Below are positions 5,500 to 12,601 of a stretch of DNA of 64,000 bases, piece by piece. How positions within the stretch are numbered: the stretch's first letter is position 1; each line of letters starts with the position of its first letter. The translations under genes and the position numbers were made by a program. The DNA lies in contig NZ_VTRT01000001.1 of the NCBI RefSeq assembly GCF_008274585.1, forward strand, positions 558,001-622,000, read 5' to 3'. The notes below the pieces were generated by a model. It worked only from the letters and a program-made list of their open reading frames with translations. It was not told the origin of the DNA and ran no database searches. The DNA comes from Pedobacter sp. BS3 (lineage in GTDB: Bacteria; Bacteroidota; Bacteroidia; Sphingobacteriales; Sphingobacteriaceae).

Positions 5500-7356
5500 C
5501 TATTTTTCAAATTTTTGCAAAAGCTCTTCTATGGTAAACGTTAAAATAACAGGTTTTCCCTGTAGCGATACATTGGGCATGGCACAAGCGAAAAGCTCAT
5601 CGATAAGCAAAGTTCGTTCTTCGGCAACGAGCGGAGTACCGGCTTTAATGGCGGCGTTTTTTGCTAAGGTACGGGCCAGGTTATCGCGTTTATCCAGCTT
5701 TAATATCGCGTGATTATTTTTAAATCCTTCTATCAGGTGCTCCAATACTTCCGATTCGCTCAGATTTGAGCCGATATCGGCAGGAATACCTTCTACTACA
5801 ACGGTATTACGTCCAAATTCGCGTATCTGGAAACCGAGCGCCTGTATATCGGGCAAGAGGTCTTTTAACAGCTCAAAATCGGCAGCGTTTAACGACACGG
5901 TTTGCGGAAACAAGCTTTGCTGACTGGCTCCCTGGCGGCTTTGCAATTGCTGCGAAAACCGCTCGTACAGGATGCGCTCATGTGCAGCCTGCTGGTCTAT
6001 CAGCATAAAACCCGATTTTATCTGCGTAATTAAAAAGCGGTTATGCAGCTGGAAAATCTGTTTTTCGGCCGGCTTTTGTACATCGGCCTGCTGCACAGCC
6101 TCGTTGCCGGGCAAATCCATTTGTTGCTGCTGGGGTTCGTTAGTGTCTGAACGCACAATATCGTATAGCGATCCCCAATTCTTTGCAGTCGCCGGTCGTT
6201 CGTACATTTTGGGAAGGGATTCCCGGCCAGAACGTGTTTCCTCGGTTTTAAACGGGTTAAAATCCGGGTTAAACGCTACTTTGGGCTGTACAATTTCTTC
6301 CATCGGTTTCTGGCTTATCAGGTGATTGAAGCCGGTTTCCTGGTCAAAATCAAGCGTTGGTGTAATGTTGTATCGCCCCAGCGAACGTTTTACCGCCGAC
6401 CGTATAATGGCGTATATTGATTTTTCATCCTGGTACTTAATCTCGGTTTTGGTTGGATGTACGTTGATGTCGATTTTGGCGGGGTCAATATCTATAAACA
6501 ATACATAAAGCGGGTAGCTGTCATCGGGCAGAATTTCGCTGTATGCTGTTATTACGGCATGGTTAAGGTAGGGGTCCTTAATAAAGCGGTTGTTTACAAA
6601 GAAGAACTGTTCGCCGCGGGTTTTCTTGGCAAATTCGGGCTTGCCTACAAAACCGCTAAGCCGGATAATGGTCGTATCTTCTTCTACGGGAACAAGCCTT
6701 TGGTTGTAATTATTTCCAAACAGGTGTACAATGCGTTGTTTGAGTCCCCCCGAAGGCAGGTGATACAATTCGTTACCATCGTGATGCAGGCTAAAAAATA
6801 TACCGGGATTTGCCAACGCTGTCCGCTGAAATTCATCTACAATATGACGCATCTCTACCGGGTTCCCTTTTAAGAAATTCCTACGGGCAGGTGTATTGTA
6901 AAACAGGTTTTTGATGCTGATACTGGTTCCGGCAGGTGCGGCAACGGCTTCCTGGCTAATTACTTCGGAACCTTCAATGCATATACAGTTTCCCAGCTCA
7001 TCCTCATGCCTGCGGGTTTTAAGCTCCACCTGTGCTATGGCGGCTATAGATGCCATGGCTTCGCCCCTGAAACCCATCGTACGTATGGCAAAAAGGTCTT
7101 CGGCTTTACGGATTTTTGATGTGGCGTGTCGCTCAAAGCACATGCGGGCATCGGTAACGCTCATGCCGCAGCCGTTATCAATTACCTGGATTAACGATTT
7201 CCCGGCATCTTTAACGATAAGCTGTATCTTATCGGCTCCGGCGTCTATTGCATTCTCTATGAGCTCTTTCACTGCCGAGGCGGGGCGTTGTATAACCTCG
7301 CCTGCAGCAATCTGATTCGCAACAGCGTCTGGGAGTAATTGTATAATGTCTGGCAT
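5500..7356 (-). CDS. mutL: DNA mismatch repair protein MutL
   Basis: The GHL-type ATPase N-terminus is clear: IAAGEVIQRPASAVKELIENAIDAG (with Glu34 and Asn35 placed as in the family), DNGCGM, and FRGEA near residue 97. The C-terminal dimerisation domain begins near residue 430 (IFQLHNRFLITQ). MutL links MutS mismatch recognition to downstream strand removal. The endonuclease signatures of Bacillus-type MutL appear eroded: the DQHA(X)2E(X)4E region reads DQQAAHERILYE, and the C-terminal CPHGRP motif is replaced by VSLQGKP. This suggests a non-nicking MutL (inference). 618 residues is a normal length. A near-consensus -7 box lies immediately upstream. Confidence 0.97.
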   Translation of the reverse strand: MPDIIQLLPDAVANQIAAGEVIQRPASAVKELIENAIDAGADKIQLIVKDAGKSLIQVIDNGCGMSVTDARMCFERHATSKIRKAEDLFAIRTMGFRGEAMASIAAIAQVELKTRRHEDELGNCICIEGSEVISQEAVAAPAGTSISIKNLFYNTPARRNFLKGNPVEMRHIVDEFQRTALANPGIFFSLHHDGNELYHLPSGGLKQRIVHLFGNNYNQRLVPVEEDTTIIRLSGFVGKPEFAKKTRGEQFFFVNNRFIKDPYLNHAVITAYSEILPDDSYPLYVLFIDIDPAKIDINVHPTKTEIKYQDEKSIYAIIRSAVKRSLGRYNITPTLDFDQETGFNHLISQKPMEEIVQPKVAFNPDFNPFKTEETRSGRESLPKMYERPATAKNWGSLYDIVRSDTNEPQQQQMDLPGNEAVQQADVQKPAEKQIFQLHNRFLITQIKSGFMLIDQQAAHERILYERFSQQLQSRQGASQQSLFPQTVSLNAADFELLKDLLPDIQALGFQIREFGRNTVVVEGIPADIGSNLSESEVLEHLIEGFKNNHAILKLDKRDNLARTLAKNAAIKAGTPLVAEERTLLIDELFACAMPNVSLQGKPVILTFTIEELLQKFEK

Positions 7357-7553: not shown

Positions 7554-7584
7554 TTTGCAAAATTCAAATAACTCTTATACCTTG
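7554..7584 (+). promoter_or_regulatory. Promoter of the structured RNA
   Basis: TTTG at 7554-7557 is followed after 20 bases by TACCTTG at 7578-7584 (one base short of TAnnTTTG). It is the only promoter-like pair in the AT-rich stretch and would start a transcript at about 7590, just before the first hairpin. Confidence 0.45.
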
Positions 7585-7589
7585 AATAA

Positions 7590-7780
7590 AATTTCACCAC
7601 CAAAACCAAAACGCAACTTTTAGGAAAGGGAAAGTTGCAGAACACCAAAGCCTTACTCTGTGTAAGGAGAGCGGTGTAGCCGAAGACCGGCAAAACAAAA
7701 AAATATTTAGCAGCTATGGCTGCACGATGGGACTATTCAAACTAACCTTACTGCCCGGTACGCCGGGCAGTTGTTTTTTA
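7590..7780 (+). ncRNA. Candidate structured small RNA with its own terminator
   Basis: About 190 bases without a plausible reading frame but with five consecutive stems. (1) GCAACTTT 7613-7620 with AAAGTTGC 7631-7638. (2) ACACC 7642-7646 with GGTGT 7673-7677, enclosing CCTTAC 7651-7656 with GTAAGG 7662-7667 and a purine-rich internal loop (AAAG / AGAGC). (3) GCCG 7679-7682 with CGGC 7688-7691. (4) GCAGC 7710-7714 with GCTGC 7719-7723. (5) A perfect terminator 7750-7771 with a U-run. A promoter-like pair precedes it. The next plus-strand gene is over 3 kb away and the stretch ends in a terminator, so it looks like a free RNA rather than a riboswitch. I cannot assign a family; known Bacteroidetes RNAs such as 6S or Flavo-1 are not excluded. 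Confidence 0.6.
7750..7780 (+). terminator. Intrinsic terminator of the structured RNA
   Basis: ACTGCCCGG (7750-7758) and CCGGGCAGT (7763-7771) pair perfectly over 9 bases around a TACG loop and run into TTGTTTTTTA. This is one of the strongest intrinsic terminators in the window, on the plus strand. Confidence 0.85.
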
Positions 7781-7872
7781 TAGCGGGTTGGGGACCAGCC
7801 GGTTGCATTAAAATCAAAAAATGTAATAATTCACTGTATTATTGTAAGTAAACAACGAAGGGAATAGCTTAT

Positions 7873-8223
7873 TTATATTGTTTCCAGTTGATTGTACGCT
7901 GATTTGATAGTGGCATTTTCATCTACTGTATTTTTGAGTTCTATAACCACTAATGGCAAACCGTTGATAAACAAAATCAAATCAGGTCGCTTGTTTTTGG
8001 TTGCCTTCTATATATTTTTTTCGCCTGGTATCTTGTGAAAGGGCAGGATTGAGTTTGTCAATAGTATCATGTAAACGAGTGGTCAGCACCACTTCATTGT
8101 ACGGCCTTCAGGGTGGTTGCCATCAGGAGATATATTTAGTCCGTTCAGGTATTCATATCCTAAACTTTTTAAATAATCCAAGGCGATTTCTTCTATTTCG
8201 TTTTCGGTGATGCTGTTTCTCAT
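7873..8223 (-). pseudogene. Remnant of a type I restriction endonuclease HsdR N-terminus
   Basis: Three short stretches in three reading frames still read as HsdR. From the ATG at 8223: ITENEIEEIALDYLKSLGYEY...SPDGNHPE; after a frameshift near 8095: EVVLTTRLHDTIDKLNPALSQDT; after a further shift and an internal deletion near 7995: [22 protein letters not shown], which is the nuclease-domain motif containing the catalytic Glu and Lys, ending at a stop at 7873. All later parts of the roughly 1000-residue protein (helicase) are gone. It is certainly non-functional as a restriction enzyme and sits beside tRNA-Arg with another broken gene. Confidence 0.8.
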
Positions 8224-8323
8224 TTTTGTTGTTTAGTCACATTACAATTATATAAAAAAAATTGATATTCAGTGTCTTATGTGAGTTTGGCAGCCTTCAG
8301 TCACATAACCATCACATAAGATT

Positions 8324-8630
8324 TCAGAACCAGAAAGGGACATATTTTGCGTATTTTTTCGATTTATTTTCTGTATCATAATCTTTAATTAGACCTGCCT
8401 GAATGGTTTCAGAAATAATACGTGAAGCCATAGAATAGTTTTGTTCATCAATCCCAAACCTTTCTCTTTGGTAATTTCTATCCGATTGCTAAAAATCTCT
8501 ACCATTGGCGAACTACCTTTGACGGCAAAATCCTGATGTATGATCGCATTAGCAACCAATTCACGGATAGCTAAAAGCGGATATAACGAAACTCTTTTCC
8601 GCAATGCCCTGTCTATTATTTCGTTCTAAG
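8324..8630 (-). pseudogene. Remnant of an AlbA_2/AAA_4-type ATP-binding protein (C-terminal half)
   Basis: The fragment reads NEIIDRALRKRVSLYPLLA and IRELVANAIIHQDF, then SSPMVEIFSNRIEITK, which is the GHKL-like C-terminal part of the 'divergent AAA-4 / putative DNA-binding' family. After a frameshift near 8450 it continues in another frame as SRIISETIQAGLIKDYD and KKYAKYVPFWF before a stop at 8324. The N-terminal half and a middle piece are missing. Genes of this family often sit inside type I restriction-modification operons, which matches the HsdR remnant next door. It is not expected to be functional. Confidence 0.7.
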
Positions 8631-8754
8631 TATACCCCTAAAGTTAATAAACTTTATTACTTTCCCTACGTCCTAAAAACGGAGTTTAATTATGAAGGTT
8701 TGAATCAATTAAGTATATGTAATATTAGGAATTTTTCCATTTGTAGAACATAAA

Positions 8755-8780
8755 AAAGCCTCAACTATCGTTGAAGCTTT
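8755..8780 (-). terminator. Terminator of tRNA-Arg
   Basis: AAAGC-TCAAC and GTTGA-GCTTT pair around TATC with one mismatch, and on the minus strand the stem runs into a T-rich tract. It starts 7 bases past the tRNA 3' end. Confidence 0.75.
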
Positions 8781-8786
8781 GCTAAG

Positions 8787-8858
8787 TAGCCCCGACGGGA
8801 ATCGAACCCATATCTAAAGTTTAGGAAACTTCTATTCTATCCGTTGAACTACAGGGCC
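8787..8858 (-). tRNA. tRNA-Arg (anticodon CCU)
   Basis: The minus strand folds as a 72-base cloverleaf. Acceptor GGCCCTG pairs with CGGGGCT (with G-U pairs at the ends), the anticodon stem GAAGT/ACTTT holds the loop TTCCTAA giving anticodon CCT, and the T arm is ATGGG-TTCGATT-CCCGT. CCA is not encoded. It reads AGG codons. The decayed restriction locus lies immediately on its 3' side, the usual side for integrations at tRNA genes. Confidence 0.92.
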
Positions 8859-11707: not shown

Positions 11708-12601
11708 ATGATCGCTCCTCCATATCTAAAACAAGGCGATAAAATTGCCATCACCTGCCCGGCAAAAAAATTGCCCGGGCCTATTGATGCGGCAGTGGCC
11801 CTGTTACAATCATGGGATTTAGAAGTAGTGCTGGGTGAAACCGTAACCGCTTCGTATCATCAATATGCCGGAGATGACGAGCTGCGCACCCGTGATTTGC
11901 AGCGTTTCCTGAATGATACCTCCGTTAAAGCGATTATTGCGGCACGAGGCGGCTATGGCACCATCCGTATCATTGACCGCCTGGATTTCTCAACTTTTCA
12001 GAAACGCCCTAAATGGATTGCCGGTTTCAGCGATATTACCGTTCTGCATAGTCACATTCATGCCAATTTTTCTATACAAACCATCCACGGACAGATGCCG
12101 CTGAATGTTCCGGATGCGACTAAAGTTTCGCTGCATACCCTGCGTAAAGCCTTGTTTGGCGAAGAGCTTCATTATACCTGTAAGAGCAATAAGCTGAATA
12201 GAATTGGTAAAGCAACCGGACAACTCATCGGCGGCAATCTTACCTTGCTGATGATATTAGATGGCTCTGTTTCTGAAATGGATTTTACCGGCAAAATTTT
12301 GTTTATTGAAGATGTAGGCGAATACCTGTATTCCATTGACCGGATGCTCTGGCATTTAAAACGGGCGGGCAAGCTATCACAACTGGCCGGCTTGGTGGTA
12401 GGTGGATTTACCGCCTGCAAAGATAACGATGTTCCGTTTGGCTTAACAGCCGAAGAAATTATTGCCGAACATGTACAGGAATTTGATTTCCCGGTAGCCT
12501 TTCATTTCCCTGCCGGACATATTGATAATAACCATGCCCTGATATTCGGTAAAACGGTAACACTCCGGGTAGATGCCCGGAACGTATTGCTAACCTATTA
12601 A
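11708..12601 (+). CDS. LD-carboxypeptidase (peptidase family S66)
   Basis: A cytoplasmic murein tetrapeptide carboxypeptidase that removes the terminal D-Ala of recycled peptidoglycan peptides. The S66 fold signatures are present: ARGGYG, the nucleophile Ser in GFSDIT, the catalytic Glu in LFIEDVGEYLYSIDR, and the catalytic His in PAGHIDNN. No signal peptide is seen, agreeing with a cytoplasmic recycling role. 297 residues is normal. It is monocistronic, between the nucleotidyltransferase pair and the convergent AraC gene. Confidence 0.9.
   Translation: MIAPPYLKQGDKIAITCPAKKLPGPIDAAVALLQSWDLEVVLGETVTASYHQYAGDDELRTRDLQRFLNDTSVKAIIAARGGYGTIRIIDRLDFSTFQKRPKWIAGFSDITVLHSHIHANFSIQTIHGQMPLNVPDATKVSLHTLRKALFGEELHYTCKSNKLNRIGKATGQLIGGNLTLLMILDGSVSEMDFTGKILFIEDVGEYLYSIDRMLWHLKRAGKLSQLAGLVVGGFTACKDNDVPFGLTAEEIIAEHVQEFDFPVAFHFPAGHIDNNHALIFGKTVTLRVDARNVLLTY

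Follow-up and report, generated by a model that had tools for sequence, protein, structure and literature searches.

A predicted small RNA beside mutL in Pedobacter and its complementarity to a multicopy, sRNA-like family

Base-pairing RNA control has been little studied in the Bacteroidota outside the gut genera. The closest described systems fall into two groups. Among the sponge RNAs, or anti-sRNAs, covered in PMC8383071 are AgvB and SroC, which act on GcvB, the chbBC spacer, which acts on ChiX, and 3'ETS-leuZ, which acts on RyhB and RybB. FopS of Bacteroides thetaiotaomicron, as presented in PMC11697453, consists of multicopy paralogues that have canonical promoters and carry a single-stranded stretch before a Rho-independent terminator. 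Here we compare with these systems a locus of Pedobacter sp. BS3, lying in a 64,000-nucleotide stretch of DNA that was analysed as a whole and is called the window, in which a predicted small RNA (class A; Table 1) carries, before its terminator, a conserved tail complementary to a second RNA family (class B).

Table 1. Features of the class A locus and its neighbour, by position in the window
Feature	Position	Strand	Basis
mutL, divergent neighbour, not part of class A	5500..7356	-	Pfam DNA_mis_repair and MutL_C
Promoter-like pair: TTTG 7554-7557, TATACCTTG 7576-7584	7554..7584	+	Sequence; same-genus orthologue
Predicted small RNA, class A, ~190 nt	7590..7780	+	5' end inferred from promoter-like pair, 3' end from terminator
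Class A body, four hairpins, one with internal loop	7613..7723	+	Fold; sequence not conserved
Conserved class A tail GATGGGACTATTCAAACTAACC, 22 nt	7726..7747	+	Reverse complement of class B flank GGUUAGUUUGA and loop CCCAUC
Intrinsic terminator: 9-bp stem, 4-nt loop, U-run	7750..7780	+	Fold, terminator scan

The original prediction had read 7590-7780 as five stems with an AAAG/AGAGC internal loop and a terminator with a U-run, and the centroid fold bears this out: stem 1 (7613-7621/7630-7638) is followed by a stem (7642-7646/7673-7677) that encloses another (7651-7656/7662-7667) across the internal loop AAAG (7647-7650)/AGAGC (7668-7672), by two further stems (7679-7682/7688-7691 and 7710-7714/7719-7723), and by the terminator stem (7750-7758/7763-7771), which runs into TGTTTTTTAT. 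The minimum free energy of the stretch is -60.2, against -43.6 (sd 4.4) for 200 shuffles, none of which was as low (z -3.79). The reverse strand is nearly as stable (z -3.27), and thus the fold alone gives no strand for class A. Terminator-like sites in the stretch number 3 against 0.7 in shuffles, and the minus strand has two weaker ones inside it; the U-run after 7771, together with the promoter-like pair, suggests the plus strand. Both boxes of that pair are present as predicted and resemble the Bacteroidota promoter TTTG/TAnnTTTG (consensus as it appears in PMC7366714 and PMC9723704), but the -7 box is not a perfect TAnnTTTG, and a sigma-70 scan gave no promoter excess (3 vs 2.6 in shuffles). 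The claimed lack of a reading frame agrees with a 65-codon open stretch (7586-7780) whose sole ATG, GTG or TTG lies at 7727, inside the tail, and the claimed lack of a plus-strand gene for more than 3 kb with the next one that has a Pfam family lying at 11708 (LD-carboxypeptidase). Nor does the stretch match a known RNA family, as had been said: at the gathering threshold, Rfam 15 (6S, Flavo-1, tmRNA, SRP and RNase P included) reports none for it or for the orthologue loci L217, L230 and L240, and at E up to 10 the window stretch yields only psm_mec_RNA and STnc180 (RF02079), both sub-threshold; with 21.3 bits (E 0.052) against a gathering threshold of 50 bits, class A is not a member of the latter.

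A tail pattern search, which needs an exact match to CAAACTAACC, finds class A in at least 11 of 399 genomes of the window's family (G000, which is the window genome, G001, G012, G020, G025, G063, G070, G077, G088, G098 and G107). Ten of these RNAs are divergent from mutL; that of G012 adjoins an amidohydrolase gene about 2.5 kb from mutL. In G001, the other member of the genus examined, class A lies at the same place and shares two blocks with the window, namely, the promoter and 5' end (TACCTTGAAT, then TTCACCACCAAAA), in which TTTG and TACCTTG are kept, and the tail with the terminator. The middle is a different sequence in which the same stem order can be drawn by eye. The bodies of both genus members beat shuffles (z -3.50 and -3.66), whereas the other nine are not clearly more stable than theirs (z -1.89 to +0.32), and so we claim no conserved body fold. 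The conserved and informative part is the tail, which the original prediction did not single out and which same-genus conservation had picked out before class B was known. It is mostly unpaired: its core, CAAACUAACC, is mostly open in 11 of 11 class A RNAs (mean unpaired probability 0.63-0.97). The GAUGG of the tail, on the other hand, takes part in stems in many class A folds (unpaired 0.00-0.88 among orthologues).

Of the proposal that this is a trans-acting or housekeeping RNA of about 190 nt, the first part survives: syntenic orthologues, the promoter-like pair, the terminator and the absence of an Rfam family support a small RNA of that length that is probably trans-acting. A housekeeping RNA is not supported, in view of the small number of family genomes in which class A was found (11 of 399, a lower bound), the divergence of the body within the genus and the nine of 11 bodies with no unusual fold.

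Searches that started from the mutL locus or from the RNA itself returned few further cases. In relatives, class A was not seen in 26 of 28 mutL regions with upstream DNA (1500 nt searched) and was seen in those of G025 and G020; in 80 more, some with little upstream DNA, it was found in none, and a terminator scan upstream of mutL at the 80 loci, run with no positive control, gave nothing class A-like. These absences rest on sequences inspected by eye (29 of the 80, plus others) and on the later scan. BLAST with the whole RNA against 60 relatives gave short pieces only, the clear match being in the same genus; 53 of the 60 had some match at E up to 1, nearly all of 15-30 nt and chance-like. 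A first tail pattern, with three mismatches, matched 36 of 399 genomes; among the contexts listed, class A accounted for three (G000, G001 and G025) and the rest had no terminator.

The class A tail pattern also matches a second, multicopy sRNA-like element, class B, whose 3' module reads on its own strand UUUAGGUUUAUAAUUGGUUAGUUUGA, a hairpin with a CCCAU loop closed by G-C, and a U-run. By a pattern of its outer parts only, AGGTTTATAATTN{10,39}GCCCATC, which omits the segment complementary to class A, class B is found in 241 of 399 family genomes, spread over 16 of 25 genera, with no match of the reversed control seen in the family table; counts for single class B or class A variants are to be read as "at least". 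A class-wide sample of 247 genomes has class B in five, all among the eight from the window's family, and one reversed-control match outside that family. The terminator stems of class B covary. Across 39 distinct hairpins, all of which contain GCCCATC by selection so that the constancy of the loop is imposed, 98.0 % of cells are paired (74.2 in shuffles), 74 cells are double-changed (16.0) and the covariation score is 0.753 (0.252), and none of 500 shuffles reaches any of these three values; the number of pairs in which both sides change, eight of nine, is not distinctive (145 of 500 shuffles).

Upstream features were counted at 82 class B places, distinct, free of N and with 255 nt upstream, taken from loci fetched without systematic sampling. 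In 56 of the 82 the 255 nt upstream contain a TTG-N18..22-TAnnTTTG promoter; the control counts are five of 76 further upstream, three of 82 for the reverse strand, and 19 of 78 for the downstream side, a number that tandem copies may have inflated. A T-loop box stands close upstream in 60 places, 52 of which also have a tRNA-like 5' box, and the acceptor stem is complete, with seven pairs, in 52 of the 53 copies that could be measured. Where the T-loop box is lacking, the 255-nt window holds a promoter in only eight of 22 places, and thus the short kind of class B is less well supported; in one short copy folded with controls, the GGUUAGUUUGA flank is unpaired. As to a tRNA identity, ARAGORN calls only three tRNA-Ala on 34 class B loci, all outside the elements, and Rfam finds the same three on 17 loci and, even with E raised to 1, no tRNA in a long copy; a short copy reaches only sub-threshold scores (rnk_pseudo, 26.5 of 55 bits; JA04, 19.4 of 81). 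Class B has no Rfam family and is present in most of the family genomes sampled. That it might be plain tRNA terminators was an idea dropped on seeing its own promoters and domains that are tRNA-like rather than tRNA. A literature search for a paper on class A or class B showed none.

Several observations on individual copies belong here. The tRNA-like class B RNAs (L209:1840-2110, L228, L232, L282, L293 and others), multicopy and with their own promoter, combine a 7-bp acceptor, a normal T-arm, an oversized variable arm and a loop UUGUCUC, fused to the 3' module; five stand in a row in G070 (L232). At about 1960-2060 of L209 and in other long copies the variable arm contains UAACCA, whose complement UGGUUA lies in the 3' module of that RNA, and the two might pair in cis; this was not seen in the class B copies of genus g21 examined. 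At L236:2229-2278 a 3' module follows a protein-frame stop by about 80 nt, with no matching promoter found, so that a few copies may have originated as the 3' ends of mRNAs. TTTACTAACC exemplifies another class B variant. Outside the window, the same genome carries three full class B genes (G000:C1:543034, C21:677821 and C26:117942) and a fourth with an altered loop (C24:231656); the window itself contains none.

The class A tail is antisense to the class B 3' module in two co-linear pieces, GATGG and CAAACTAACC, ordered to pair with CCCAUC and GGUUAGUUUG. Both pieces are imposed by the search pattern; neither search specified the bases beyond the core. In class B these neighbouring bases vary from genus to genus, and a number of class A tails change to match: TAATCAAAC of G025 fits its class B GTTTGATTA, TTTTCAAAC of G012 fits GTTTGAAAA, AAGCTCAAAC of G020 fits GTTTGAGCTT, and GAGCTCAAAC of G070 fits GTTTGAGCTC. 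Over the 11 related genomes, a set that includes one or two class B loci for each of G077, G098 and G107, pairs beyond the core with own-genus class B average 2.95 against 2.17 on permutation (1 of 100000). Two genus sets of five representatives each give 3.66 vs 2.25 and 3.18 vs 1.99, the true assignment standing alone of 120 both times. The covariation rests on G025, G012, G020/G077 and G070, and the lineages are few. The tails of G063, G088, G098 and G107 (genus g20) form only 2.0 such pairs, that of G070 matches its own class B and that of g20 equally well, and those of G000 and G001 form 1.7 with their own class B against up to 2.0 with that of other genera; since the window tail fits its own class B no better than others, the window RNA adds nothing to the covariation.

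Calculated energies are in keeping with the complementarity. Duplexes of the tail with its own class B range from -25.0 to -33.1 kcal/mol (33 modules, eight of the 11 genomes), whereas 500 shuffled tails give means of -9.3 to -11.8 and a lowest single value of -24.6, reaching no genome's own values; in the window genome the three full modules give -25.0 to -26.2 kcal/mol, against a shuffled mean of -11.2 and a lowest of -21.9. With other class B types (22 modules) the means are -19.4 to -23.6 and the best value -27.1; the shared GGUUAG and CCCAUC provide this pairing, and discrimination is thus partial. When whole RNAs of the window genome are co-folded, the gain is -12.1 (L211), -9.5 (L210) and -5.5 kcal/mol (L209), and the L210 co-fold leaves the class A tail unused.

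We incline, if only slightly, to the reading that class A is a lineage-restricted, trans-acting anti-sRNA of class B, sponge-like in its action. Class A would be transcribed from its own promoter, with the core of its tail left open before the terminator. The tail would pair at two sites of class B, the single-stranded GGUUAGUUUGA and the CCCAU loop of its terminator hairpin, tying up the region through which class B would act; this might block class B, merely titrate it, or perhaps lead to degradation of both RNAs together. More tentatively, and at rather less than even chances, the two families may form a two-layer RNA circuit, in which a widespread, multicopy class B, often a tRNA-like trailer, would be checked in some genera by a mutL-side class A gripping its terminator loop and flank, the partners changing together between genera. 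If so, the pair would offer a small but complete test system with a defined antisense contact and natural variation that names the bases to change. It would also illustrate how an sRNA can be recognised by way of its terminator hairpin, and it might add another instance of a tRNA-like trailer serving as a regulatory RNA.

The main rival reverses the direction: class A would be the sRNA that does the regulating, and the numerous class B trailers would serve as its sponge. Class B copies do outnumber class A, and the tRNA-type T-loop box upstream of so many of them recalls the leuZ tRNA trailer, which PMC8383071 presents as a sponge for RyhB and RybB. We nevertheless judge this unlikely, for class B is widespread and class A was found in few genera, which makes it more likely that class A acts on class B than the reverse, and the many genera having class B and no known class A imply that class B must have another role. 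It counts against the anti-sRNA reading that G006, G030 and G090 have a matching class B and that no class A was found in them. When class A was sought by tails complementary to the g21 type of class B, 48 matches were listed in 20 genomes, mostly class B itself; of the 15 others, 11 were inspected, one being class B-like and none having a class A-type terminator. Among 30 loci with the bipartite site, those that are not class B show no class A beyond that of G012. As for sites that class B might itself pair with, antisense matches to its core with up to three mismatches number 42 and 46 in two genomes of the genus, against 20 and 29 for the reversed control; 11 such loci showed no recurring target by eye, and one held a further class B-like copy (L333).

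Quite unlikely, too, is that class A acts in trans on mRNAs as ordinary sRNAs do, its tail having originated when the end of a class B gene was copied in inverted orientation. Such an origin would likewise yield lineage-matched complementarity, and conserved ends around a variable middle are common in sRNAs. In the window genome, however, the bipartite site GATGGN{2,20}CAAACTAACC occurs at four places, which are class A and the three class B genes and nothing else, although mRNA sites may be shorter. A small peptide is very improbable: the tail ATG does open an 18-codon frame through the terminator (7727-7780, MGLFKLTLLPGTPGSCFL), and an M-G-x-K-L-T-type frame is common to eight of the 11 tails, but it is broken in three (G070, G077 and G107), has only seven residues in G001, and complementarity already explains the tail. 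Equally remote is a leader or attenuator acting in cis on the amidohydrolase gene, which follows class A in the same orientation in G001, G025 and G012, yet adjoins mutL without the RNA in most relatives and was not found in the window genome by a query that matches relatives at 60-66 %, so that class A is not simply its leader. Where G001 and G025 carry this gene, the window has a region (7800-8780) with only short or broken frames between class A and a tRNA (8787-8858, minus strand); many stops occur in it, its frame 8389-8604 (minus strand) has no Pfam match, and it looks like a decayed insertion beside the tRNA.

Set against the known systems, class B is like FopS, as portrayed in PMC11697453, in its multicopy paralogues, its promoters and the single-stranded stretch before the terminator. 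It differs from what that source describes in being seen only in the window's family in the class-wide sample, and in having a tRNA-like 5' part in most sampled copies, with no Rfam model reporting it. Class A, read as an anti-sRNA, would resemble the bacterial sponge RNAs covered in PMC8383071 in carrying a segment antisense to another small RNA. Unlike them, it belongs to another phylum, is a prediction from sequence and faces a multicopy family as its partner, and the contact predicted for it has two parts, one with a single-stranded flank of class B and one with the loop of the class B terminator hairpin.
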